Below, one piece after another: positions 29,473-48,487 of a stretch of 64,000 bases of DNA (within the stretch, counting starts at the first letter, position 1; each line of letters begins with the position of its first letter). The notes beneath the pieces are model-generated. The model saw only the letters and a list, made by a program, of their open reading frames with translations, had not been told where the DNA came from and searched no databases. Source of the DNA: a virus. Both the position numbers and the translations under genes were made by a program. The stretch lies in IMG/VR virus record IMGVR_UViG_3300049927_000072, positions 1 through 64,000 of that record; one strand, 5' to 3'.

Positions 29473-29667
29473 ATGTTCGACACACCCCTCAAAGTGATGC
29501 TCTGGATTACGGTCGCGATACTTGCCCTCGCTTTCTTTTTCGGGCACGCCTCGGCACAGGTGATCGGGATCACTGATGCGAATGGCGGCACGACAATTGT
29601 AGTACCGCTCGGTTCGGCCGCGCCGCACATTATCGACGTGGAAGCGAAGCGCAAAGGGTGCGAGTAA
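29473..29667 (+). CDS. Exported small protein (64 aa)
   Basis: ATG 29473 behind AGAAAGGAAA. MFDTPLKVMLWITVAILALAF plus FFGHASAQ is a signal peptide. The mature part (VIGITDANGGTTIVVPLGS) is short. The frame is open upstream to 29284 without a stop, so a longer protein is possible. TAATG junction with rtcB. Confidence 0.6.
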   Translation: MFDTPLKVMLWITVAILALAFFFGHASAQVIGITDANGGTTIVVPLGSAAPHIIDVEAKRKGCE

Positions 29668-31031
29668 TGTCAGAGACCATGACCCGCCGCCCTGATCTGT
29701 ACCAAGTTCGCGCGCGTGAGATCGCGATAGAGAAAGGTCTCGACCCCGATGCGCGCGTCGGTGACGGGCGCGGCGCTCCGCAGTGGTGCTCATTCCGGCA
29801 AGCCGCTCGCGACGAGCACAGCGCACGCGAAGCGAAAGCAGCATCCGGGCAAATCGCAGCGATGCCCGCGTATCAAGCGCCTGAATACACGAACGCACCG
29901 TTGGCGATCTTCGGTGAGGACCACGACGAGAACACGATCCTGCAAATGAAGAATTGCATGTCAGTCGGCAATGTGGTCGGCGGGGTGATTTGCGCCGACG
30001 GTCATCTTGGCTACGCGCAGCCGGTCGGCGGAGTGATCGCCTATGATAAGCAAATCAGCATCTCAGGCGTCGGCTTCGATATCGGCTGCGGTAACATGGC
30101 CGTGAGGCTTGCCAGAAATTTCTTCGATATATCCAACGATGAAATTGGGATGTTTGCGCGCGATATCGCCAGCGAGATTTCGTTCGGTGTCGGCCGCATC
30201 AACGAAACGAAAGTTGAGCATGAATTGTTCGACGATGTTGAGGCGTGGCGCGCGAGTGGCATGGAAGACTACAAACCGAAAGCACGGGCGCAACTCGGCA
30301 CGGTTGGTTCAGGCAATCACTACGTGGACTTGATGCGCGACGAGCTAGGCTTTGTCTGGATCGGCGTGCACTTCGGATCACGCGGTCTCGGCCACACGAG
30401 TGCAACAAAATATCTCAAAGCGGCTGGCGGCAAAGATGGGATGCACGTGCCGCCCGCCGTGGTCGACGAGAGCAGTGAGATCGGCGTGCGGTACCTTGCG
30501 GCGATGGAACTTGCCGGGCGCTACGCTTATGCCGGGCGCGAGTGGGTCGTAGAACACGTGCGACAGATTGTCGGCGGCGAAGTTCTCGACAGCGTGCACA
30601 ATCATCACAACTACGCGTGGAGGGAATTGCACAACGGGCGCGAGCTTTGGGTCGTACGCAAAGGCGCAACGCCAGCATTTCCGGGACAGCGAGGATTTGT
30701 CGGTGGCAGCATGGGCGACGATGCTGTGATTATTGAAGGCGTCGAAAGCGATTGGTCACGTCGTGCGCTTTTCTCGACAGTGCACGGTGCGGGCCGTTTG
30801 TTCGGCCGCAAGGAAGCCAAGCGACGTTTCACTAAAGATGAAATGGATGGATGGCTACAGCGGCGCGGCGTGACGTTGGTTGGTGCTGATCTCGATGAAA
30901 GCCCGATGGCATATCGCCGCCTACCAGAAGTGCTCGCCGAACATTTAGATACGATCATCGTACGTCATGTGCTGCGGCCGTTCGCGGTCGTCATGGCGGG
31001 GGAAGGCGAGTTCGATCCATTTAAGGATTGA
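29667..31031 (+). CDS. rtcB: RtcB RNA ligase
   Basis: 454 aa. Canonical RtcB motifs in order: ADGHLGYAQPVGG (D111, H113), GFDIGCGN (Cys131), GTVGSGNHYVD (about 201), GVHFGSRG, HNHHNYAW (about 291-298), RKGATPAFPGQRGFVGGSMG and VHGAGR with the His353 to which GMP is attached. Conserved metal-binding Asp, Cys and His all appear intact. RtcB joins 2',3'-cyclic phosphate (or 3'-P) to 5'-OH RNA ends and repairs cut tRNAs. In a phage it could undo anticodon-nuclease defence; that is inference. No Archease partner seen. Confidence 0.95.
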   Translation: MSETMTRRPDLYQVRAREIAIEKGLDPDARVGDGRGAPQWCSFRQAARDEHSAREAKAASGQIAAMPAYQAPEYTNAPLAIFGEDHDENTILQMKNCMSVGNVVGGVICADGHLGYAQPVGGVIAYDKQISISGVGFDIGCGNMAVRLARNFFDISNDEIGMFARDIASEISFGVGRINETKVEHELFDDVEAWRASGMEDYKPKARAQLGTVGSGNHYVDLMRDELGFVWIGVHFGSRGLGHTSATKYLKAAGGKDGMHVPPAVVDESSEIGVRYLAAMELAGRYAYAGREWVVEHVRQIVGGEVLDSVHNHHNYAWRELHNGRELWVVRKGATPAFPGQRGFVGGSMGDDAVIIEGVESDWSRRALFSTVHGAGRLFGRKEAKRRFTKDEMDGWLQRRGVTLVGADLDESPMAYRRLPEVLAEHLDTIIVRHVLRPFAVVMAGEGEFDPFKD

Positions 31032-32515: not shown

Positions 32516-33283
32516 ATGATTAAACTAGCGAAGCTCGCGACGGTGTCGGCTCTGGCGATCAGTCTCGCCTTGCCAGCATACGCCGCGCCCCCGTCGGGTA
32601 GTAACGCCGGGGGAAACTCCGGCAGTAACTCAAATGCCGGTGGATCGAACGCTGGCGGCAATTCTGGTAGCAACGGCACGCCTCCCGGGCAGGGCGGCGG
32701 ATCACCGAGCAACTCCGGCAGCAACATCGGCAACGTCGGAAATACAGGCAACGGAAATTCCGGCAACGGAATTGGAAACACCGGCCCGGGCAATCCCGGC
32801 CAAGGGAGCGGCGGCACGCAAGGCAACGCTGGCGGCAGTCCCGGCGGTGGCGGTGGCGGTGGCGGTGGCGGTGGGGGTGGCGGTGGCGGCGGTGGTGGCG
32901 GTCACGGACATGGCCATCACCCGCACGGCAAGCCAGCGGCGACCAATCATTCATCCGGTGGCCGTAGCGGCGGACACGGCTCAGCGGCGGCGGCCTACGT
33001 CGGCGCGGCAGTCGGGTGTTCGGCTGTATTTCTGATCGCGGGCGGGGCCGTCAAGGCCGCGCGCGAGAATAAAGAGCTTTCATTCGAGGAAGCCTATTCT
33101 ATCGTCGGAAATTGCTTTCTGCCATTCTTAGGCGGGATGGCAATGGCAAAGCTCGGCCGCGATACCGACAAAGCGGTCTGCAAAAACCCTCACATGCTCG
33201 ACAGCTATTTCCCTGAAACGGCTGGCGAGGTTCGGGCGCGTTTCGTCCGGCAGCATTGCAAGGGAACGCAACTAGCTCAGTAA
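32516..33283 (+). CDS. Secreted Gly/Asn/Ser-rich protein
   Basis: 255 aa. Signal peptide MIKLAKLATVSALAISLALPAYA; a long low-complexity region rich in Gly, Asn and Ser with a 15+ Gly run; His-rich GHGHGHHPHG; one hydrophobic helix (AAVGCSAVFLIAGGAVKAA); and a globular end with paired Cys (NCFLPFLGG, VCKNPH). It resembles alphaproteobacterial secreted glycine-rich proteins. A terminator follows. Role unknown. Confidence 0.65.
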   Translation: MIKLAKLATVSALAISLALPAYAAPPSGSNAGGNSGSNSNAGGSNAGGNSGSNGTPPGQGGGSPSNSGSNIGNVGNTGNGNSGNGIGNTGPGNPGQGSGGTQGNAGGSPGGGGGGGGGGGGGGGGGGGGHGHGHHPHGKPAATNHSSGGRSGGHGSAAAAYVGAAVGCSAVFLIAGGAVKAARENKELSFEEAYSIVGNCFLPFLGGMAMAKLGRDTDKAVCKNPHMLDSYFPETAGEVRARFVRQHCKGTQLAQ

Positions 33284-35268: not shown

Positions 35269-35418
35269 ATGGAAAATTGTGGTCCGCTAACTTGGTGTCT
35301 TCTTTGGCAACTTATTGTGGGGTTTTTATTCTGGCCGACTGTGTTCGCGATAATGGCCGGGATAGCGCGGCTCTTTTACGGTAAATGGCCGGTTGCGAGT
35401 TTTCTGAAACGGCGATAA
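35269..35418 (+). CDS. 49-aa membrane peptide
   Basis: MENCGPLTWCLLWQLIVGFLFW and following hydrophobic residues. GAGGAA site precedes. Its last codons (KWPVASFLKRR) are read through the candidate late promoter A. Confidence 0.5.
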   Translation: MENCGPLTWCLLWQLIVGFLFWPTVFAIMAGIARLFYGKWPVASFLKRR

Positions 35419-35419
35419 A
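35389..35419 (+). promoter_or_regulatory. Late promoter-like element A
   Basis: CCGGTTGCGA (35389-35398) with TTGCGA, a 15-base spacer and GATAAA (35414-35419), then a G-rich leader before ATG 35453. Sites A and B are nearly identical from the -10 region through 20 downstream bases. Confidence 0.6.
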
Positions 35420-35452
35420 CACGGCGGCTCAATTCGGGGGGGGGAGACCGCC

Positions 35453-35689
35453 ATGGGTGTATTAAAAGCCAAGTCGCGCAACGCGCTGCCGTCGAAAGAT
35501 TTCGGCCTGCCGGATACGCGCCAGTATCCAATTGAGAATAAGGCTCACGCGCGCGATGCACTGGCCCGGGACAGTGAAGAGCTTGCCAAGGGCAAATTGA
35601 CCCCGGCACAGGCGGCTCAAATCAGGCACCGGGCCGACGTAGTGCTCGGCGAGACTGACAGCAACTACCACAATCACAGCAAGAAATAA
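35453..35689 (+). CDS. DUF6582-type small phage protein (78 aa)
   Basis: MGVLKAKSRNALPSKDFGLP, then 'RQYPIENKAHARDALARDSEE'. This layout (K.RN.LP...FalP..R.YPi.n.aHARnAL.R) is a known small family found beside phage morphogenesis genes; its role is not known. GGGGGGGGGAG precedes the ATG. First gene of the right-arm cluster. Confidence 0.75.
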   Translation: MGVLKAKSRNALPSKDFGLPDTRQYPIENKAHARDALARDSEELAKGKLTPAQAAQIRHRADVVLGETDSNYHNHSKK

Positions 35690-35717: not shown

Positions 35718-35942
35718 ATGAAAGATGCACAGGGACACGGCAGCGATAGCACTGGCAACCTCGCCCAGACAGGGCGCGGCCCGGCGGCTCATTCGTCGTT
35801 TCTGATCCAGAAATTAAACCCGGCGCTCGTGGGCAACCCGTGGCAGACGGTCGCGCGCATGAAAAACCAAGCGACGGCCGAGCGTGTCGCGCAGCACATG
35901 CGAACCGATGACCGCAGTATAACGAATAGGGTGAGACGATGA
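35718..35942 (+). CDS. MKD-GHGSD leader protein 1 (74 aa)
   Basis: Starts MKDAQGHGSDSTGNLAQTG, followed by an unrelated basic region (MKNQATAERVAQHMR). One of five genes with the same N-terminal word. Its stop overlaps the next gene's ATG as ATGA. The leader DNA is highly similar in all copies, so tandem duplication is likely. Role unknown. Confidence 0.75.
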   Translation: MKDAQGHGSDSTGNLAQTGRGPAAHSSFLIQKLNPALVGNPWQTVARMKNQATAERVAQHMRTDDRSITNRVRR

Positions 35943-36181
35943 AAGACGCACAGGGACACGGCAGCGAAGGCTCCGGCGCTGCGCATCAACGCGGCGTCGA
36001 GAAAGCATCGGCCACGATGACGCGCCAGCATTTCGAGATGATCGCGAGTACGCTCGCGAGCAGTGGAGCGAGTGCGGAGATTGTTAAAAATTTCGCTGAC
36101 AAACTCGCGGCGACAAATCCGCGATTTGATGCGGCTAGGTTCACCGCTGCGGCATCGAAAAGCTCCGGAGCAAAGAAATGA
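35939..36181 (+). CDS. MKD-GHGSD leader protein 2 (80 aa)
   Basis: MKDAQGHGSEGSGAAHQRGV then a helical, basic body (EMIASTLASSGASAEIVKNFAD). Shares leader with neighbours but not the body. ATGA overlap on both sides. Role unknown. Confidence 0.75.
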   Translation: MKDAQGHGSEGSGAAHQRGVEKASATMTRQHFEMIASTLASSGASAEIVKNFADKLAATNPRFDAARFTAAASKSSGAKK

Positions 36182-36429
36182 AAGACGCACAAGGACACGG
36201 CAGCGACGGCAGCGGTAGCTTTATGCCGAAGTCTATCAGCGATGCTCGCGCGGCAGCGGCGCTCGCGCAAAATCATCCGAAGTCCGACACTAGCCCCGTC
36301 ACCGGACGACTTCCGGGTTCCGGAATTGGCATGAGCGCGAATGCGAGCTTCTCGGCTCCGGCGCGTGGTATGAGTTTCTCCGGCAACACCGCAGCGATGC
36401 TCATGCGTCAGAAGATGACAGGGCGATGA
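36178..36429 (+). CDS. MKD-GHGSD leader protein 3 (83 aa)
   Basis: MKDAQGHGSDGSGSFMPKSI, then a Gly/Ser/Ala-rich low-complexity tail. ATGA overlap on both sides. Role unknown. Confidence 0.75.
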   Translation: MKDAQGHGSDGSGSFMPKSISDARAAAALAQNHPKSDTSPVTGRLPGSGIGMSANASFSAPARGMSFSGNTAAMLMRQKMTGR

Positions 36430-36779
36430 AAGACGAACGCGGGCACGGTAGCGATGCGCGCGGGGATATGGCTCGTCAAAATCCGACAGTCGTTTCTATT
36501 TCTGCCATACGCCCGTCTCAAGAAAATCTAGCTTGGATTGCAAAAGGATTAGCCGCCGCCGTTGAGGGTGCTAAGGCTGCACAGGCTGCGTACGGTGGAA
36601 AACTTGTTCCGATAGAAACAGGCGTGGATATGTACCGTCAACAAATTCGGTCTGGCGCGTATATTGCCCCGCTCAGCGTTGACACGAAAATGAACTTGAT
36701 CGACGGGCATACTCGGCTATTAGCCTACAAGGCCGAAGGAATTGCAAAAGTGCCGGTACAAGTCGTTCGAGGGAAATAG
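36426..36779 (+). CDS. MKD-leader protein with ParB/Srx-like domain
   Basis: 117 aa. MKDERGHGSDARGDMARQ leader, then a helical segment and DGHTRLLAYKAEGIAKVPVQVV, the ParB/sulfiredoxin-like 'DGH.R..A....G...vPv.vv' signature that binds nucleotides or DNA. The shared leader places it in the family of five; the domain suggests a DNA- or nucleotide-related role in head assembly or ejection. Function not shown. Confidence 0.75.
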   Translation: MKDERGHGSDARGDMARQNPTVVSISAIRPSQENLAWIAKGLAAAVEGAKAAQAAYGGKLVPIETGVDMYRQQIRSGAYIAPLSVDTKMNLIDGHTRLLAYKAEGIAKVPVQVVRGK

Positions 36780-36782
36780 GTC

Positions 36783-36986
36783 ATGGCAAAAAGCAAAGGC
36801 GGGGCAAACGCAAAGTTTGGTCTCAAGAGCGGCAAAGGTGCACCGAGTTCAACCGTGCAAGTGAAGCCGACATATCAGCACGATGTAGTCGAGTGGCTGA
36901 AGCAGGAAGCGGATCGCAACGCGCTCGCGGTCAAACTCGGTCGCACAAAGACGAAAAGCAAATTCGCTCCGAAGTCTTCCCTATAA
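36783..36986 (+). CDS. Small basic protein (67 aa)
   Basis: MAKSKGGANAKFGLKSGKGA, ends RTKTKSKFAPKSSL. Strongly basic. Could be an internal DNA-binding virion protein. Does not carry the MKD leader. Confidence 0.6.
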   Translation: MAKSKGGANAKFGLKSGKGAPSSTVQVKPTYQHDVVEWLKQEADRNALAVKLGRTKTKSKFAPKSSL

Positions 36987-36993
36987 TAAATTG

Positions 36994-37024
36994 CCGGTTG
37001 CGGCAATATTGAAACGGCGATAAA
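36994..37024 (+). promoter_or_regulatory. Late promoter-like element B
   Basis: CCGGTTGCGG (36994-37003), 15-base spacer, GATAAA (37019-37024). Downstream bases match element A closely. Confidence 0.6.
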
Positions 37025-37052
37025 CACGGCGGCTTAAATCGGGGGACCGCTC

Positions 37053-37340
37053 ATGAATATCGCACGTTCCGGCGCGCCCAAAGCGCCGCAGACCGAATTT
37101 GCTCCGCGCGACACCATGAAAGACATGACCGAGTATTCGGCCGGTCCGGCGACGCCCGGCTCTGGCCCGGATGCGTCGGCCGCAAATCCGCTTGAGAGTG
37201 AACCTCGCGGGAAGCTTCTGACCAAACAGCCCGGCGCTGTTGGCGCTGCATGGGATATGACGGACGGAGACGGCGACGGCGTCGATCCGACTATTGGTGG
37301 TGACGTGCTCAAGGAAGGCAAGCTGACAGGACGGCCATAA
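37053..37340 (+). CDS. Small hypothetical protein (95 aa)
   Basis: MNIARSGAPKAPQTEFAPRDT, disordered and acidic (TDGDGDGVDPTIGG). Behind GGGGGACCGCTC. Not related by leader. Unknown. Confidence 0.65.
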   Translation: MNIARSGAPKAPQTEFAPRDTMKDMTEYSAGPATPGSGPDASAANPLESEPRGKLLTKQPGAVGAAWDMTDGDGDGVDPTIGGDVLKEGKLTGRP

Positions 37341-37341
37341 G

Positions 37342-37587
37342 ATGAAAGACGAGCGGGGCCACGGGTCAGACAGTCAAGGGGGCGCGGGCATATCGCATCA
37401 AAGCGCAGTGCAGCGGATCGGTGCAACACTCGGAGCGTTCGCAAAAGATGAAAGCGGTTCCGGCAAAACAGTCGGAGAAGCAGCCTTCGAGAAAATGCAC
37501 GACCCGGCGATGATCGCTAACTTAGTCGCCGAACTTGGGTCGCCAGAATTGGCGACCGTTGCGCATCTCGCGCACCTTTTGATTTAA
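37342..37587 (+). CDS. MKD-GHGSD leader protein 5 (81 aa)
   Basis: MKDERGHGSDSQGGAGISHQ, then a helical C-terminal half (MIANLVAELGSPELATVAHLAH). Same leader as 35718-36779 but separated by two unrelated genes. Role unknown. Confidence 0.75.
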   Translation: MKDERGHGSDSQGGAGISHQSAVQRIGATLGAFAKDESGSGKTVGEAAFEKMHDPAMIANLVAELGSPELATVAHLAHLLI

Positions 37588-37600
37588 CGGGGAGATGAAC

Positions 37601-37825
37601 ATGGCGACGAACGTTTACGGATCAGACATGCCAGCCGACAATTGCTACGGCGAGAATGGCTACACCGGCCAGTCGAGCGTAGTGCCCGGCCAGCCCGCGG
37701 TTAGCTGCGATCTCGAAGCGAGCAAAGGGCTCGGCTCCGTTCCCGCCATCTCGCAGACCCGCCAAGTAAGCGCAAAGCCGCTCGCGACCCGCGTTGGACG
37801 CGGCGCGTCGGCTCAGTGGAAATAA
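37601..37825 (+). CDS. Small hypothetical protein (74 aa)
   Basis: ATG 37601 six bases behind GGGGAG. MATNVYGSDMPADNCYGENG, Ser/Ala-rich end (ATRVGRGASAQWK). Followed by hairpins. Unknown. Confidence 0.55.
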   Translation: MATNVYGSDMPADNCYGENGYTGQSSVVPGQPAVSCDLEASKGLGSVPAISQTRQVSAKPLATRVGRGASAQWK

Positions 37826-37943: not shown

Positions 37944-38633
37944 ATGAGCCGCTCAAGCGATTTGGCGAAAGCGCCCGTGAGCTTGCGAACGCGCGAGCCG
38001 GGCAGACGATATAATCCCAAAACATTGCGGAATGTGGTCAAATGGGCGCGAGAGATGCCCGTCATTCGCGTGATATGCGAGCGCGCTCGGGTCACCCGTG
38101 CTGGTCTAGCCTACTGGATCAAGAAGAGCGCCGCGGGTGAGATTGGGTGTGGTGATGGTTTCGACGTGACTATCAATGGCGAGACGCGCCGTTTTCACGA
38201 TTGGTATTACGATGCGTTCAGCGACGGTGTTGATCGCGTCGAAGAAGCCGCATTCAAACTCGCGAACGGCACGCACATGGAAGCGCTCTCTTACCGGGGC
38301 CGCGTGAATTATCAGGAAGACCCGGACTTGCTCGCGCTCGGCTTCGAAGGGCCGGAAGCGTGGAAGCGAGACAAGAACAATCGTCCAATACCAGAGGCAA
38401 TAGCAAAACTCGACCCGGATATGACGCGCTTCATTCTAAAAGCGCATCGGCCGGAACGGTACATCAATACGCAGAAAATAGATGTAACGCACAAGGGCGG
38501 CGTGCTTGTGGTCGGAACGCAAATGAAGCGCGAAGATTTCGAGAAAAAGTTTGTCGGCAAGTCCGGCACCGCAGACGTATTGGATGTTGAGTTCGAAGTT
38601 GTACCCACTGACGCCCCAGACCCGACGGCCTGA
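37944..38633 (+). CDS. Terminase small subunit-like protein
   Basis: 229 aa, MSRSSDLAKAPVSLRTREPG. Contains NPKTLRNVVKWAREMPV and CERARVTRAGLAYWIKK, a helix-turn-helix DNA-binding region. The C-terminal half ends beta-rich (GGVLVVGTQMKREDFEKKF). Position immediately before the large subunit. It would recognise phage DNA for packaging. Confidence 0.75.
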   Translation: MSRSSDLAKAPVSLRTREPGRRYNPKTLRNVVKWAREMPVIRVICERARVTRAGLAYWIKKSAAGEIGCGDGFDVTINGETRRFHDWYYDAFSDGVDRVEEAAFKLANGTHMEALSYRGRVNYQEDPDLLALGFEGPEAWKRDKNNRPIPEAIAKLDPDMTRFILKAHRPERYINTQKIDVTHKGGVLVVGTQMKREDFEKKFVGKSGTADVLDVEFEVVPTDAPDPTA

Positions 38634-38634
38634 C

Positions 38635-40191
38635 ATGGGTGTGACCGTAGAAAAATGGCGGCTGAAGGATGGTGTGTGGCGGCCGTGGGTCCGCAACAAC
38701 GAAGGCGAATTGATTGAAGCCATCTGGGCCGCGCAAGCTGGATCGCAAGACGCATTTCTCTCGTGCCCTACATTCGAAACTCTCTACTCCGGAACACGTG
38801 GACCGGGAAAAACTGACGCGCTCTTGATGGACTTCGCGCAGGATGTCGGCAAAGGCTTCGGCTCTAACTGGGTTGGCATTCTCTTCCGGCAGTCGCATCC
38901 GGCGCTGCGAGACGTGATCGAGAAGAGCAAGCGCTGGTATAAGCAAATCTGGGGCGATGCTGCGTTCTACAATGAGATCAAATTTTTCTGGGAATGGGAT
39001 ACCGGCGAGCGGTTGTACTTCTCGCACTTTGCGACCATCTCGGACTACGACAAGTACCACGGCCACGCGTACCCGTGGATCGGTTGGGAAGAATTGACCT
39101 CATGGGCCATGCCGGATTGCTATAAGTCTGCATTCTCACTTTGTCGCTCGCCTGTGCCGGGCATCCCGAAGAGGATACGCGCGACGACCAACCCGCACGG
39201 TGTCGGCCACAACTGGGTCAAGGGTCGTTTCCGGATCATTACAGTATCGCCGGATAAAATCGCAGACCCTGTGATAACGGATGCGAAAGACGAACAAGGT
39301 CGGCCCGAGCCACCGCGTCAAGTAATCTTCGGCTTCCTTGAAGAAAATAAAATCCTGCTACGCGAAGACCCGGAGTATGTCACCAACCTGCGAACAGCGG
39401 CGCGAAGTGAAGCGCAACTGCAAGCGTGGCTTTACGGTTCATGGGACATCGTCGCCGGTGGCATGTTCGACGACATCTGGCACGGCTACAAGACGGACAT
39501 CATCGTTGAGAATTTCCAAATACCGCCAGAGTGGCCAATCTATCGCGCGTACGATCACGGAAGCTCGAAGCCGTTTAGCGTCGGCTGGTATACGGTGAGT
39601 GATGGCTCCGATGTCATTGTCAACGGCAAGGTTCGGGCAACTGTGCCGGGCGATCTATTCCGGATCGCCGAATGGTACGGCTGGCGCGGTGTAGAAAACG
39701 AAGGCACGCGCATGCTCGTCGCAGATATCGCGCGCGGAATTATCCAGCGGGAGATCGATTGGGGATGGCGCTCACGCGACGGCAAGCACGTGCGAGTGAA
39801 ACGCGGACCGGCGGACACGTCCATATTTGACGAAAACAATGGCGTATGTGTCGCGGATGATTTCGAAAAGCCTGTGTTTATCAACGGCATCAAACATCGC
39901 GGCGTCGTATGGGAGCGCGCCGATAAAGGCCCCGGCTCACGCGTGCAAGGTTGGGAGCAAGTCCGGCGACGCTTGAAAGCAACGAAACGGCCGGACGGCG
40001 GCATCCGGGAAGTGCCGAGCCTGTTTATCGATGCCAAATGCAAACAATGGCTGCGCACTGTGCCAAATCTGCCGCGAGACGAAGATAAGATCGATGATGT
40101 GAACACAGAGGCAGAGGATCACGTCGGGGACGAGACACGCTACATGCTGCGCTTCGAGCCAAGAACAATGAAATCGGGGCGCACAATCTAA
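38635..40191 (+). CDS. terL: Terminase large subunit
   Basis: 518 aa from ATG 38635. Walker A GTRGPGKT (residues 53-60), Walker B region WIGWEEL (about 148-154), then nuclease domain with YRAYDHGSSKPFSVGWY (Asp) and LFIDAKCKQW/NTEAEDHVGDETRY. Typical order for the motor ATPase and RNase H-like nuclease of tailed phages. Start chosen because it is one base after the small-subunit stop. Confidence 0.95.
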   Translation: MGVTVEKWRLKDGVWRPWVRNNEGELIEAIWAAQAGSQDAFLSCPTFETLYSGTRGPGKTDALLMDFAQDVGKGFGSNWVGILFRQSHPALRDVIEKSKRWYKQIWGDAAFYNEIKFFWEWDTGERLYFSHFATISDYDKYHGHAYPWIGWEELTSWAMPDCYKSAFSLCRSPVPGIPKRIRATTNPHGVGHNWVKGRFRIITVSPDKIADPVITDAKDEQGRPEPPRQVIFGFLEENKILLREDPEYVTNLRTAARSEAQLQAWLYGSWDIVAGGMFDDIWHGYKTDIIVENFQIPPEWPIYRAYDHGSSKPFSVGWYTVSDGSDVIVNGKVRATVPGDLFRIAEWYGWRGVENEGTRMLVADIARGIIQREIDWGWRSRDGKHVRVKRGPADTSIFDENNGVCVADDFEKPVFINGIKHRGVVWERADKGPGSRVQGWEQVRRRLKATKRPDGGIREVPSLFIDAKCKQWLRTVPNLPRDEDKIDDVNTEAEDHVGDETRYMLRFEPRTMKSGRTI

Positions 40192-40194
40192 AGG

Positions 40195-40225
40195 CCGGTT
40201 GCTAATAAAACTGGAACGTGATTTA
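40195..40225 (+). promoter_or_regulatory. Late promoter-like element C
   Basis: CCGGTTGCTA (40195-40204), 15-base spacer, GATTTA (40220-40225). Followed by GGGGGACACC and ATG 40248. Confidence 0.6.
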
Positions 40226-40247
40226 TCGCAAATTCGCGGGGGACACC

Positions 40248-41900
40248 ATGAGCCTTGAAGACAAACATCCGGAATATATCAATCGCCTAGGTGAATGGAT
40301 ACAAATGGGCGACACCTACGCGGGTGAGCGCGAAATAAAGCGCAAGCGCGTAGACTACCTGCCCCCATGCGAAGGAATGATTGCGGACGGCATGTCCAAT
40401 CCGCAGTCTCCCGGCTGGAAAGACTACGAAGCGTATTTGATGCGGGCCGTGTATCCTGACGTGGTCAAGGATGCGGTTAAGGCGATGGTCGGCATTATGC
40501 ACATGCGACCCGCTACGATCACGCTCCCGAAAAAACTGCAAGGCATGTTCACCAAAGCCACCGCTCAGGGCGAGGGCTTGCAAATGCTTTTGCGTCGGAT
40601 CAATGAGGCGCAACTCAAAAACGGTCGCTGCGGATTGCTGGTCGAAGTGCCGACAGGCAAGGACGCGGCGAGTGCGCTCCCGTATATCGCGTTCTACGAT
40701 GCCGAACGCATCACGAATTGGGACGCTGGCCGATATGAAGAGGGCCAGAACGATTTGGAAATGGTTGTGCTCGACGAGAGCGGACCATCGCGCAAAGGTT
40801 TCACATGGCAGACGGAGCGTAAATTTCGCGTCCTTACGCGCGGGGCTTTGAGCGCTATAAATGCCGACGGAGAATGGCGACCCACCGATACCGACGAATA
40901 CGTGGTCGCAGTGAAAATCAATGAAGTCAACACTCCGACCGCGGGCGATTTTATCACACCACAAATCGCTGGCCGCACACTGAAAAAAATTCCGTTTGTG
41001 TTTATCGGCGCAAACGATCTCGTACCAGAGCCGGAAGTCCCCCCACTAATTGGTCTCAGCAATCTAGCTCTCGCGATCTATCGTGGCGAGGCTGACTATC
41101 GTCAGACCCTGTATTATCAGGGCCAGCAAACGCTCGTTATCATCGGCGGCAACGCTGGTGACACTGACGAGCAAATTCGCACCGGCAATAAGGGCGTGAT
41201 CGACCTCAAGCTTGGCGGCGATGCAAAATTCATTGGCGTTTCCGCGACTGGCCTTGGCGAGATGCGTCAAGCGGTCGAGAATGACAAGGCCAAAGCCGAC
41301 AGTATGGGCGTCGCATTCATGGATGTCGGCAATGCGCGCGGCGAGAGTGGCGAAGCTCTCCGTATTCGAGTGGCCGCACGCACCACGACAATATCATCGA
41401 CCAACCAAGCTGCGGGCGCTGGCCTCGAAGCTGCGTTGAAATTCTGCGCGGAGTGGGTCGGAGAAAATCCGGACGAAGTGAAAGTCGAAGTGCAAACCGA
41501 CTTCGCGGATCAGAGTGTCGCGGGTGCTGCATTGCTTGCGTTCATGCAGGCGAAGCAACTTGGCTTGCCGCTGTCTCTCAAGTCGTTACATCGCACTATG
41601 AAGGCGAACGACTTGACCGACATGACCTTCGAAGAAGAGAGCGACCAAATCAAGGAAGAAGCCGTGACCGCGGTCGAGGATATGGCCGATCTCACGCAAG
41701 TGGCGAGCGACAATAACTTCCTTGACGAGCCAGCCGACACGACAGATGCGACGGCAGGGAATGTGAAAACCACTCCGCCCATCGCTCCCGCCGGGCTTAT
41801 CAAGCCCGGCCAGAGCGTCCCGGTAACCCCGCACGCGCGCGGAACGCCAGTCCCCATGAAAGGCAAAGTCGGCAAAAAAGGTGCGTCGGCTGGAAAGTAA
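40248..41900 (+). CDS. Portal protein (DUF4055 type)
   Basis: 550 aa, MSLEDKHPEYINRLGEWIQM. The run DYLPPCEGMIADGM, EAYLMRAVYPDVVKDAVKAM and RPATITLP then LLRRINEAQLKNGRCGLLVEVP is characteristic of DUF4055 portal-like proteins. C-terminal third is acidic and Thr/Pro-rich. Forms the DNA entry dodecamer. Position between terminase and head morphogenesis genes agrees. Confidence 0.9.
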   Translation: MSLEDKHPEYINRLGEWIQMGDTYAGEREIKRKRVDYLPPCEGMIADGMSNPQSPGWKDYEAYLMRAVYPDVVKDAVKAMVGIMHMRPATITLPKKLQGMFTKATAQGEGLQMLLRRINEAQLKNGRCGLLVEVPTGKDAASALPYIAFYDAERITNWDAGRYEEGQNDLEMVVLDESGPSRKGFTWQTERKFRVLTRGALSAINADGEWRPTDTDEYVVAVKINEVNTPTAGDFITPQIAGRTLKKIPFVFIGANDLVPEPEVPPLIGLSNLALAIYRGEADYRQTLYYQGQQTLVIIGGNAGDTDEQIRTGNKGVIDLKLGGDAKFIGVSATGLGEMRQAVENDKAKADSMGVAFMDVGNARGESGEALRIRVAARTTTISSTNQAAGAGLEAALKFCAEWVGENPDEVKVEVQTDFADQSVAGAALLAFMQAKQLGLPLSLKSLHRTMKANDLTDMTFEEESDQIKEEAVTAVEDMADLTQVASDNNFLDEPADTTDATAGNVKTTPPIAPAGLIKPGQSVPVTPHARGTPVPMKGKVGKKGASAGK

Positions 41901-41906
41901 AACATC

Positions 41907-42779
41907 ATGGCCTTCGACCCGGATCAACTCCGAGACGAGCATGGCCAGTGGACGAGCGGGGGAGCTTCAACGCCTGAAAAGGCGCAAGAGCAAGCCAACC
42001 GCGTCGCCGCTGGCGCGAAGCCTATTGAGAGCCTCCCGCAAAAGCCAATCAACATAGGCGGCAAGTGGTACGTGCCGGGACCGATAGGTTCGCTGCGCGA
42101 CGCTGCATCCAAGTACATGGCTGAGAGCAAGCTCGACTACAGTCCGGTCACGAAATATGAAAAGCTCGACGAAGAGCGTGCAACCAATATCGCGCAAGCC
42201 TTTGAAGAGATGAAAAACGATCCGACCAATCCGGAAGTGAAAGCATCCTACGAAGCAATGGCGCACGAAGTCATGGGCCAATACCAAGCGCTCGTGGACA
42301 GTGGTGTGAAAGTCGAATGGATCAAGCCGGGCCAACCGGACCCATATGCAGCAACGCCGCGACTTGCTGCGGTGGATGTGAGCGAAAACAAGCATTGGTG
42401 GGGCTTTCCGACCGATCTCGGCTATGGCTCCGGCGATCATACGGACACAAAAGACAATCCGATGCTGCAAAAAGTCGGCATTAAAATTGACGGGCGCGAT
42501 GTCGTGCTTAACGACGTGTTTCGCGTCGTGCATGATATGTATGGTCATTTCAAAGAGGGCAACGGTTTTCGCGCCGCAGGCGAAGATAACGCTTGGCGAT
42601 CTCACGCCTCGATGTTTTCGGAGAAAGCTTTGCCAGCAATGACCGCGGAAACGCGCGGGCAAAATTCGTGGGTAAATTACGGGCCATACGGCTCATACAA
42701 TCGCACGGCGAGCGCGGGAGACACGCATTATGCTCCGCAGAAAATCGGCATCATGCCCAAGTGGACACAGGCGCGATGA
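41907..42779 (+). CDS. Head-associated protein with RDEHGQW leader
   Basis: 290 aa. MAFDPDQLRDEHGQWTSGG is a motif of phage head/portal-associated proteins and resembles the MKD leader (DE.GH/Q...). The C-terminal half has NDVFRVVHDMYGHFKEGNGF, AAGEDNAWRSHASM and AETRGQNSWVNYGP, a domain I have seen in phage proteins but cannot name reliably. HD..GH and R..E-type residues are candidate catalytic residues. Function uncertain. Confidence 0.6.
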   Translation: MAFDPDQLRDEHGQWTSGGASTPEKAQEQANRVAAGAKPIESLPQKPINIGGKWYVPGPIGSLRDAASKYMAESKLDYSPVTKYEKLDEERATNIAQAFEEMKNDPTNPEVKASYEAMAHEVMGQYQALVDSGVKVEWIKPGQPDPYAATPRLAAVDVSENKHWWGFPTDLGYGSGDHTDTKDNPMLQKVGIKIDGRDVVLNDVFRVVHDMYGHFKEGNGFRAAGEDNAWRSHASMFSEKALPAMTAETRGQNSWVNYGPYGSYNRTASAGDTHYAPQKIGIMPKWTQAR

Positions 42780-43126
42780 CCAACCTAGACAACTCCGCCG
42801 CGCGCCCGAGAAAGCAAGTTCCTGAAGAGGAAGCTTGGCGCAAACATCGAGCATTGCAGCAACTGCCGCGCACAACTTTCTCTATATCGCCGCGCGACAC
42901 ATCGACAGCGCGCGTCGGTCGGGCAGAAGCGTGGAAAGACGCGGTCAAGATCATTGACGCCACTGAGCCGGAAGTACGGGATATCATCGAGCGCGGTCTT
43001 GCATTTCGTGCGGCGACGTACGGTGAACGAATGTTACAAGTCATGTCCGTTGTGGATCAGGTCGCAACTGTGCGGATCAAGGCGTTCAAAAAAGCATTTC
43101 GTCTTGTGCGAACGCGTGGTGTGTGA
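42776..43126 (+). CDS. Hypothetical head protein (116 aa)
   Basis: MTNLDNSAARPRKQVPEEEAW at the start, C-terminal helices (VKIIDATEPEVRDII...). ATGA overlap with the previous gene. Might be part of a split head morphogenesis protein. Confidence 0.55.
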   Translation: MTNLDNSAARPRKQVPEEEAWRKHRALQQLPRTTFSISPRDTSTARVGRAEAWKDAVKIIDATEPEVRDIIERGLAFRAATYGERMLQVMSVVDQVATVRIKAFKKAFRLVRTRGV

Positions 43127-43392
43127 TGGATGACATGATGCAGATGCGTCCGAAACAAATTGCGCGACTGACAGTCGCGCAGTGGGCGAAATATTTTGCA
43201 GAAAAAGATCGCACTCTTATTGACAACGCCATACGAGGCGGTGTAATAGCCGGACTTGAGAGCACTGAGATCGCGCGCAAGGTGATCGGCAGTTTGCAAC
43301 TGAACGGTCTCGACGGCGCGACTGAAAACACCCGACAGCAAATTATGAAATTAGCGAGGGTCGCCGTAGCGCGGCGTAAAAAGCGCGAATAA
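43126..43392 (+). CDS. Helical protein, MuF-like? (88 aa)
   Basis: MDDMMQMRPKQIARLTVAQWA, then 'LIDNAIRGGVIAGLESTEIARKV', a pattern of MuF-type head morphogenesis proteins (I..aI..g...G.s..eIa..i). A GTG at 43123 is an alternative start. Basic C-terminus. Confidence 0.5.
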   Translation: MDDMMQMRPKQIARLTVAQWAKYFAEKDRTLIDNAIRGGVIAGLESTEIARKVIGSLQLNGLDGATENTRQQIMKLARVAVARRKKRE

Positions 43393-43455: not shown

Positions 43456-44316
43456 ATGGCTAAGCTGAAAACCATCTATGAGACCGCAGAGGAAATTCCC
43501 GAAGGCTTCGCGGACTTGTTCACCGAGCGAAACGGGAAGTTCGAACTAACCGGCATCGAAAACGTCAAAACACAAGGTGACGTTGACCGAGTGGCCGAAG
43601 CTCTCCGTAAAGAAAAGGCCGATCACAAGGCCACCAAAGAGAGCCTTGTAAAATTTCACGGCATCGATCCTGAGACCGTCAATGCTCAACTCGAAGAGCT
43701 TGAGAGCACCAAGACCCAACTCGAAACCCTCACGAAAGGTGGCGCACTCGACGAGGCCAAGCTTGAGCCGATTATCGAGGCTCGCGTCAAGCGCGCTCTC
43801 GGCCCAGTCGAGCGCGAGAAAACTCAGTTGACGCGTGCGCTCGAAGTGTCGAAAAACGAAACCGTAGCTGCACGAACGGAAGTGGATAAGCTCTCTGGCG
43901 TGCTACAGTCTGGCACGATTGAGCGCGCGATCCGCGATGCAGCCATCGCCGCGAAGGTTATCAGCCCTGCCATTGAAGACGCTGTTATGCAGGGCCTTAG
44001 TGTCCTAACTGCCGCCGAAGACGGCGCGATTGTCACCAAGGACAACGTTGCGGGTGTGACCCCGGGCATCAGCGCTGCCGATTGGCTCAAGGACATGCAG
44101 GACAAGCGTCCGCATTGGTGGCCCGTCTCGCAAGGCGGCGGTTCACGCGGCGGCTCGGGCGGCGCGGTTAATCGCGCGGACAACCCGTGGACAAAGGAAG
44201 GCTGGAACATGACCAAGCAAGGTCAGACGGTGAAAACTCTCGGCGAGGCGAAAGCGAAAGCGATGGCTGAGAGCGTCGGCAGCTATATCGGCGCTACCAG
44301 CGCGGCGAAAGTCTGA
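43456..44316 (+). CDS. Capsid scaffold protein
   Basis: 286 aa behind GAGGGGGAC. N-terminus MAKLKTIYETAEEIPEGFADLFTE (partial), a long charged coiled coil (EALRKEKADHKATKESL, QLTRALEVSKNE), then a Gly-rich linker (GGGSRGGSGGAVNRAD) and NPWTKEGWNMTKQGQTVKTL at the C-terminus. Scaffold architecture of tailed phages: coiled coil plus a C-terminal capsid-binding motif. Directly upstream of head genes. Confidence 0.8.
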   Translation: MAKLKTIYETAEEIPEGFADLFTERNGKFELTGIENVKTQGDVDRVAEALRKEKADHKATKESLVKFHGIDPETVNAQLEELESTKTQLETLTKGGALDEAKLEPIIEARVKRALGPVEREKTQLTRALEVSKNETVAARTEVDKLSGVLQSGTIERAIRDAAIAAKVISPAIEDAVMQGLSVLTAAEDGAIVTKDNVAGVTPGISAADWLKDMQDKRPHWWPVSQGGGSRGGSGGAVNRADNPWTKEGWNMTKQGQTVKTLGEAKAKAMAESVGSYIGATSAAKV

Positions 44317-47389: not shown

Positions 47390-48487
47390 ATGACTACCGT
47401 CTCCACCACCATTTCTGACGTTATCGTCCCGTCAGTCTTTACGCCCTACACTCAGCAACTTACGATGGAAAAGACTGCTCTTATCCAGAGCGGCATCGCT
47501 TCGCGCGATGATTTCCTCGACAAGCTGCTCGCGGGCGGGGGCCTGACCTTCACCGTTCCGTCATGGCAGGACATCGGCGATCCCGCCGAAAACGTGTCCA
47601 GCGATGACCCGGACACTCTCTCTACCCCGAACAAGACGCAGGCTTCGGCCGAAGTCGCGGTGCGCCTCTCGCGTAACGCCTCTTGGAGCACGATGCGTCT
47701 CGCCACGGCCCTTGCCGGTGCCGACCCGATGCAGTCAATTGCATCGCGCGTCTCCGACTACTGGGTCCGTCGCCTTCAGCGCGCCTTCGTGGCGGTTGCT
47801 AACGGCGTGTTCGCGGACAACGCTCAAGCCGATCCGACCAATGGTCGCTCTGGCAACGTCGGCCTGACTGCCGCTTATGGCACGCAGAATGACTTGACGC
47901 ACTCGATCATCGGTGGCTCGTTCTCCGATGGCGTGACAAACTTCTCGGCTGCGGCGTTCATTGACACCGCAACCCTGCTCGGCGACGCGGCCGAAGACGT
48001 GACGGCAGTTGTAATGCACTCGGTTGTTTACAGCCGTGCGCAAAAGAACAACCTGATCGACTTCATCCCGGACAGCGAAGGGAAAATCAACATCCCGACG
48101 TTCCTTGGACGGCGCGTGATCGTTGACGACGGCATGCCTAACCCGGCTGGCGACAGCGGAAACGGTGCGCAGACTGCTTCGGGCATCTATCACACTTGGC
48201 TTGTTGGCCCGGGCGCGTTCCGCCTCGGCGTCGGCACCCCGGTTGTGCCTACCGAAGTGTTCCGCTACCCGGATCGCGGCAACGGCGCTGGATCGGACAT
48301 CCTCTATAACCGTGTCGAGTGGTCTATCCACCCGGTCGGCCACGCCTACATCGGAACGCCTTCAACCGAAGGTGGCCCGACGAACGCTTCGACGAGCAAC
48401 AACCTCGCCGCTGCGGCTTCGTGGGTCCGTGTGTTCCCCGAGCGCAAGCAAATCAAGCTTGCTCGGCTAATCACTCGCGAGAGCTAG
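47390..48487 (+). CDS. Major capsid protein
   Basis: 365 aa. MTTVSTTISDVIVPSVFTPY, then LTFTVPSWQDIGDPAENVSS, RLSRNASWSTMRLATALAGADPMQSIASRVSDYW-type text and VVMHSVVYSRAQKNNLIDFIPDSE (partial quotes). This is the HK97-like capsid family of the kind annotated 'phage coat protein' in many siphoviruses. Strong promoter and terminator around it support high, separate expression. No protease-cleaved N-terminal arm seen. Confidence 0.9.
   Translation: MTTVSTTISDVIVPSVFTPYTQQLTMEKTALIQSGIASRDDFLDKLLAGGGLTFTVPSWQDIGDPAENVSSDDPDTLSTPNKTQASAEVAVRLSRNASWSTMRLATALAGADPMQSIASRVSDYWVRRLQRAFVAVANGVFADNAQADPTNGRSGNVGLTAAYGTQNDLTHSIIGGSFSDGVTNFSAAAFIDTATLLGDAAEDVTAVVMHSVVYSRAQKNNLIDFIPDSEGKINIPTFLGRRVIVDDGMPNPAGDSGNGAQTASGIYHTWLVGPGAFRLGVGTPVVPTEVFRYPDRGNGAGSDILYNRVEWSIHPVGHAYIGTPSTEGGPTNASTSNNLAAAASWVRVFPERKQIKLARLITRES

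Follow-up and report, generated by a model that had tools for sequence, protein, structure and literature searches.

A ten-residue leader shared by small proteins encoded beside phage head genes is probably a cargo-loading tag, which by analogy with known packaged proteins would direct exchangeable, separately encoded effectors into the virion. Pattern scans of IMG/VR recovered ~200 distinct proteins with the same leader, with a maximum of 11 in one phage, and the leader is carried by a widespread soil phage family. We infer packaging, ejection, binding of the leader to an interior procapsid component and an effector function of the attached bodies. The window, by which we mean the whole stretch of 64,000 nucleotides that was analysed, sits in a virus record of 75,884 bases and contains five such proteins.

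The sequence-only reading had described five genes with a common MKD[AE][QR]GHGS[DE] leader on unrelated bodies, four of them consecutive and one displaced by two genes. All five are open reading frames at those positions. The first four overlap by ATGA, and the fifth follows two other genes (36783-36986 and 37053-37340). The block and its borders consist of the following genes:

35453-35689, + strand: 78-aa conserved gene (phrog_16160, weakly DUF6582-like), upstream limit of the block
35718-35942, + strand: leader protein 1, 74 aa, MKDAQGHGSD leader (35718-35747)
35939-36181, + strand: leader protein 2, 80 aa, MKDAQGHGSE leader, with a RxHFExIA...ATNPxFxxxxF mini-domain
36178-36429, + strand: leader protein 3, 83 aa, MKDAQGHGSD leader, with the recurrent AAALA..HPKS motif
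36426-36779, + strand: leader protein 4, 117 aa, MKDERGHGSD leader, ParB/sulfiredoxin-like body (phrog_620, 4.1e-6)
36783-36986, + strand: 67-aa gene within the block, without a leader, homologous to a leader protein (L023 4666; phmmer E 1.4e-5)
37053-37340, + strand: 95-aa conserved acidic gene (pI 4.6), downstream end of the block and clade marker
37342-37587, + strand: leader protein 5, 81 aa, MKDERGHGSD leader
37595-37825, + strand: 76-aa conserved gene between the block and the small terminase gene, present in 37 loci

In pairwise comparison the window leaders have 7-10 of 10 residues in common. Identity in the 60 nt that follow them is 23-35%, and no two of the five bodies match each other in BLASTP better than E 0.08. 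The pattern MKD..GHGS occurred 0 times in 60 shuffled windows, so the set is not due to chance. The body of leader protein 1 belongs to the IQKLNPALVGNPWQT..ATAERVAQHMRTD family; 31 loci have related proteins (phmmer with the whole protein as query), and leaderless paralogues lie upstream of the block in L015, L032 and L064. Sequence related to leader protein 2 is found in 39 loci, and the homologue of leader protein 5 at L122 4191 begins MRDAKGHGS. The ParB-like body noticed earlier in one of the proteins is borne out by the phrog_620 match of leader protein 4. The gene at 36783 is leaderless although its homologue L023 4666 has a leader, which is a point against the tag reading. The acidic gene at 37053 is present in 46 loci and lies upstream of the small terminase gene (TerS) in 35/35.

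Two copies of a 59-bp direct repeat, 85% identical, occur at 35382-35440 and 36987-37045. Both contain the 36-bp core TGAAACGGCGATAAACACGGCGGCTNAANTCGGGGG, and they lie directly upstream of genes 35453 and 37053, flanking the first part of the block. It may represent a promoter that was duplicated or the edge of a cassette; in five other loci examined, no repeat of this type was reported. Comparison of the block with Rfam gave no match for a regulatory RNA or riboswitch, and that reading was rejected on this basis. Promoter and terminator scans of the block remained at chance level, and a DNA search of the block against named phages returned no match. Elsewhere in the window, a 457-aa ORF (29658-31031, + strand) appears by eye to resemble an RtcB-type RNA ligase (GVGFDIGCGN motif), and a 255-aa low-complexity ORF (32516-33283, + strand) has long runs of glycine, asparagine and serine.

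The joining of one leader to unrelated bodies holds far beyond the window, as the ~200 IMG/VR proteins attest. An initial IUPAC scan for MKDxxGHGS with an AGY serine yielded 78 stretches, many with three to eight matches, and two further scans (TCN serine; MAKD or MPKD starts) yielded additional loci. The consensus is M(A)KDA[KL]GHGS[ND]x[RH]G. Positions left free by the search are also conserved: alanine at 4 in ~87%, lysine or leucine at 5, asparagine, aspartate or glutamate at 10, arginine or histidine at 12 and glycine at 13. In 19 whole phage records of up to 127 kb the pattern KD..GHG[ST] gave 113 matches (reversed control pattern, 0), confined in each record to a single strand and to one or two clusters. 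In the 43 blocks with at least three leader genes, these genes cover 76% of the block length and 141/208 junctions fall within 20 nt. In 257 Gb of bacterial genome sequence three stretches turned up, of which two are on MAG contigs of Hyphomicrobiales and the third is probably a chance match; viral contigs gave dozens, and a host-genome feature was rejected. No paper in the literature searched contains GHGSN together with 'phage', and no known name for the motif was found.

Selection acts on the leader peptide. Six leader positions, which are the residues fixed by the search pattern, are invariant in the collected proteins, with all or most synonymous codons in use; for the invariant glycine at position 6 the codons GGA, GGC, GGT and GGG occur 97, 58, 30 and 12 times. 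At five of the invariant positions, codon identity is 0.587 for leaders of one locus and 0.543 for leaders of different loci, where 0.475 is expected from body codon usage. Residues are thus kept while codons vary. The earlier proposal that the leader DNA is similar and was duplicated fits window leaders 1-3, which are identical at 27-28/30 nucleotides, but not leaders 4 and 5, which agree at 10/10 residues and at only 22/30 nucleotides. Recent DNA duplication as the sole cause of the set is therefore rejected, given the synonymous divergence of the leaders. The leader is a non-hydrophobic peptide, and AlphaFold2 models for the commonest body family (27 sequences) predict residues 1-20 to be disordered and the body to be folded with a pLDDT of about 92.

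The leader proteins have a median length of 123 aa, with bodies mostly of 70-200 aa, and a median pI of 9.9. Searches with 77 body representatives gave matches to ART-PolyVal, rifampin-ADP-ribosyltransferase-like (Arr-ms), ParB_N, GNAT and HEIGH-peptidase domains. The ART-PolyVal matches comprise three members, the best at 1.4e-12, one of which passes the Pfam cut-off (39.2 bits vs 31.2). Each recognised leader protein has a single domain. The commonest body is homologous to part of the 'internal virion protein' of two T7-like cyanophages, SS120-1 (a segment of the 1807-aa chain) and S-CBP42, where it forms a domain. A fold search traced the same body to multidomain phage proteins of large size, including one that contains a Zeta toxin domain and another called XkdF; a fold search of the PDB gave no match. 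The gp111 protein of mycobacteriophage I3 joins this body to a domain with homology to the window protein at 41907. No domain can be recognised in many of the bodies, and certain bodies are very short or of low complexity; an effector role suits these poorly. The bodies are shuffled, and both their repertoire and the number of leader genes vary among phages. Further linear motifs that recur within the bodies, among them AAxAL.xGxKSxxxPxHxxM and AHxxG[VI]xx[VI]G, are likewise shuffled among otherwise unrelated leader proteins (e.g. L044 5253, L058 5931 and window 36178). A RiPP precursor was considered and rejected: the bodies are mostly of 70-200 aa and lie among head genes, one family is modelled as a folded domain, and no RiPP-type modification enzymes appeared in the searches run.

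The GHGS leader is not the only one of its kind. In L147/L122 the same block and bodies occur, with four genes starting M(A)W[ST]DEARxA[AS]..AR (the W leader) and one starting MRDAKGHGS. The W leader is also scattered within GHGS blocks. Its presence on bodies that elsewhere have the GHGS leader indicates that the same bodies can take either leader. Starts similar to the W leader were seen in L207 and L211. Between portal and scaffold there is a third leader, RDxHGRW, which heads at least five large proteins that are unrelated to each other and include one with a weak likeness to ART. The sequence-only reading had remarked on the likeness of the window leaders to the RDEHGQW leader of the 41907 protein. 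This stands as a parallel case, RDxHGRW being itself a leader, but common ancestry of the two is not demonstrable because they have too few residues. The genes with these other leaders are:

L122 at 3141, 3491, 3781 and 4510, + strand: W-leader genes
L003 at 3830, L006 at 417, L026 at 3483 and L053 at 8157: W-leader genes elsewhere
Window at 41907, L006 at 11445, L022 at 6884, L046 at 8835 and L057 at 5130: RDxHGRW-leader proteins

Within the clade the leader genes occur only in late gene regions, those for packaging and structure. They form a block just upstream of the terminase genes, with a few further copies among the tail genes, behind the tape-measure gene. In most of the clade the block is delimited by homologues of genes 35453 and 37053. 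Relative to the 35453 homologue (30 loci), 0 leaders are upstream and 169 downstream; where the small terminase gene is present, 187 leaders come before TerS and 1 after, the latter between portal and head protein. Leader genes directly follow the tape-measure gene in L010, L043, L052 and L069. In three of these (L010, L043 and L069) the gene is a homologue of the ParB-like leader protein 4 (E 1.4e-14) and keeps its leader, so the leader accompanies the protein irrespective of the site. The sequence-only reading had named homologues lacking the leader as evidence against it, and these were found; in two families (VEKHIAFHG and WYFIYDD), the leaderless copies lie upstream of the boundary gene, outside the block, and the copies inside the block bear the leader. 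Within the leader clade this distribution in two families supports a tag.

Single leader genes also occur next to different head modules in unrelated phages. In L101 and L109 it stands directly before the large terminase gene (TerL); L102 has it between the scaffold and a P22-like portal, and its neighbours in L074 are an endolysin and a MuF gene. The terminases of L036 and L038 are also of other kinds. Five further unrelated phages (L100, L104, L108, L110 and L116) encode a single MAKDKEGHGSE protein each. No head-gene context is recognisable in this group, which is a further point against the tag reading.

A second sample, for which loci were gathered by terminase homology and not by leader, shows how closely the block follows one lineage. 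Among loci with at least 4.5 kb upstream, leaders are present in 24/25 with terminase identity of at least 60% and in 6/21 below 60%. On the TerL tree one branch with support 100/100 holds 36 GHGS rows, the W-leader row L147 and the row L197, which is cut before the block. The leader block marks one terminase clade, and every assessable member has the leader or, once, the W leader. Sister phages on the tree, including Roseobacter phage RDJL3, have 0 real leaders; an apparent leader-bearing sister, L165, was rejected since its match lies outside any gene. PaMx25 was left out of the tree inference because of its extremely long branch. No cultured phage of the leader clade was found in the collections searched, and the leader is absent from the head-gene stretches examined in the cultured relatives RDJL3 and PaMx25.

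The head module of the window follows the block:

37944-38633, + strand: terminase small subunit, assigned from its conservation and its position between the block and TerL, the same place as the annotated TerS of RDJL3
38551-40191, + strand: terminase large subunit (start approximate), marker for the clade tree
40218-41900, + strand: portal protein (DUF4055)
41907-42779, + strand: 290-aa protein with the RDEHGQW leader
43123-43392, + strand: MuF (head morphogenesis) stub (phrog_241, 3.6e-10)
43456-44316, + strand: head scaffolding protein (phrog_206), candidate leader-binding partner
47390-48487, + strand: major head protein (phrog_247)

The portal is 48% identical to the 62-kDa structural protein of RDJL3 and 44% identical to Nipunavirus portals. 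The body of the 41907 protein is a domain of large proteins, namely I3 gp111, a 2803-aa Planktothrix phage protein and E3 gp205, which is annotated as 'structural protein'; its own structural model was too poor for use (mean pLDDT 59.7). Of phrog_241, the window MuF matches only positions 140-206 or so. All MuF proteins found in leader-clade loci are stubs, of 114-244 aa (none was found in L023, L046, L166 and L168). Over all the stubs compared the length is 89-244 aa, and they match only about positions 105-213 of the MuF profile, with short extra stretches in two loci. In contrast, the MuF proteins of leaderless sisters have 338-630 aa and cover most or all of the profile. Two loci grouped with the sisters in the MuF comparison, L129 and L134, have stubs too; neither has a place on the tree, and L134 shares its contig with the leader-bearing L060. 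The co-occurrence suggests that MuF stub and tag are linked, although, since the clade represents a single evolutionary event, the correlation shows no cause. No prohead protease was detected among the head and tail genes scanned.

The sequence-only reading knew of no described system of this kind, but the capsid-targeting sequence (CTS) of T4 and the targeting segment of P1 are analogues. The T4 internal proteins IPI-IPIII have a CTS of about ten residues on small, basic, unrelated bodies, are expressed late and have bodies that vary between related phages (PMC9026906). The likeness lies in a short N-terminal leader common to unrelated small basic bodies. The GHGS leader differs in sequence and host, and no prohead protease was found among the genes scanned. 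Its phages have many more cargo genes, in an operon-like block before the terminase genes, the bodies include enzyme domains, and a second exchangeable leader exists. No T4-like head gene was found, and the portal is closest to those of the siphophages RDJL3 and Nipunavirus; the phages being unrelated to T4-like ones, the leader is not a T4 CTS proper but most plausibly works like one. In P1, the N-terminal ~30 residues of DarB direct this anti-host protein into the head and suffice for a reporter (PMC9024508); there, ~30 residues stand on one 250-kDa protein, whereas the GHGS leader has ten residues and serves many small single-domain proteins. Polyvalent proteins are multidomain effector chains encoded near portal and terminase genes and thought to be packaged and injected (PMC5512222). 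The GHGS bodies share their domain types (ART-PolyVal, ParB-like, GNAT, peptidase) and their place beside portal and terminase genes. However, the proteins of Iyer et al. (2017) are multidomain, and here the domains are separate genes, each with a leader; as none of the recognised leader proteins has the two or more effector domains per chain that define polyvalent proteins proper, that assignment was rejected. In MuF-effector fusions, effector domains are tied to the head interior of portal/terminase phages (PMC5512222). The MuF of the leader clade is a stub without the C-terminal part, and the effectors would be supplied in trans; a MuF-effector fusion was rejected in the absence of a C-terminal effector on the clade's MuF.

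Other functions of the leader would account for part of these observations. It may target the virion while the bodies are structural or assembly factors (internal, neck or DNA-condensing proteins) and not injected effectors. That the leader proteins are small and basic (median pI 9.9), that many have no enzyme domains and that their genes are encoded amid head genes speaks for such a role. However, the recognisable bodies are effector-type enzymes, homologues of the bodies occur as domains in an internal virion protein and in a protein containing a Zeta toxin domain, and repertoire and gene number vary between phages, unlike structural parts; we regard this explanation as unlikely. A role within the infected cell in place of one in packaging also seems quite unlikely; there the leader might, for example, stabilise the protein or dock it onto an enzyme complex of host or phage. 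Two body families are leaderless where they are encoded outside the block, and in phages of several unrelated types the leaders adjoin genes for terminase, portal or scaffold, although a short disordered N-terminal motif is typical of docking peptides too and the isolated MAKDKEGHGSE proteins have a non-head context.

A role in the DNA or its expression, either as a translation-initiation segment or as a 5' recombination stretch for swapping bodies, would leave the peptide itself without a role. The near identity of window leaders 1-3 in DNA (27-28/30), the enrichment of AAA and GCA codons at the start, the clear shuffling of bodies and the 59-bp direct repeat flanking part of the window block all accord with it. 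Against this, the six invariant residues are written in variable codons, identical peptides differ at 8/30 nucleotides, an unrelated leader replaces the GHGS leader wholesale on the same bodies, and the leader is found in phages without the clade's terminase. This explanation is accordingly very improbable.

The sequence-only reading had suggested that the leader tags virion proteins for assembly, targeting or processing. Of these, targeting is the best supported, by position, bodies, exchange of leaders and fixation in a single clade; processing is less likely, since no prohead protease was found among the head genes scanned. Under the cargo-loading reading, an interior component of the procapsid (scaffold, portal or MuF stub) would bind the leader during head assembly, and the bound leader would draw the attached body into the head. 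The bodies would be effector domains of the 'polyvalent protein' kind that act early in infection, leaving the virion together with the DNA and entering bacteria. Packaging and ejection are supported indirectly by the homologues of the bodies in internal virion or structural proteins. The effectors would then form an array of separate genes with one tag, in place of a giant fusion protein or a MuF fusion. A more specific version, which we offer tentatively as it is on balance doubtful, is that the clade has exchanged the usual fused-effector design for a modular one, in which MuF has been cut down to a docking stub and single-domain effectors are recruited in trans by exchangeable N-terminal address peptides. 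With similar reserve, these peptides may comprise the GHGS type, the WSDEAR type and, for large proteins, the RDxHGRW type.

If the cargo-loading reading is correct, a ten-residue motif would flag probable injected proteins in uncultured soil phages, including many without any other recognisable feature, and would point at once to ~200 candidate effectors or counter-defence proteins. The leader would also give a new signal by which proteins of choice could be packaged into phage heads. The finding bears on the way in which the proteins inside the head are selected in phages that have neither a prohead protease nor giant ejection proteins, and the MuF stub of the leader clade makes a specific docking hypothesis testable.
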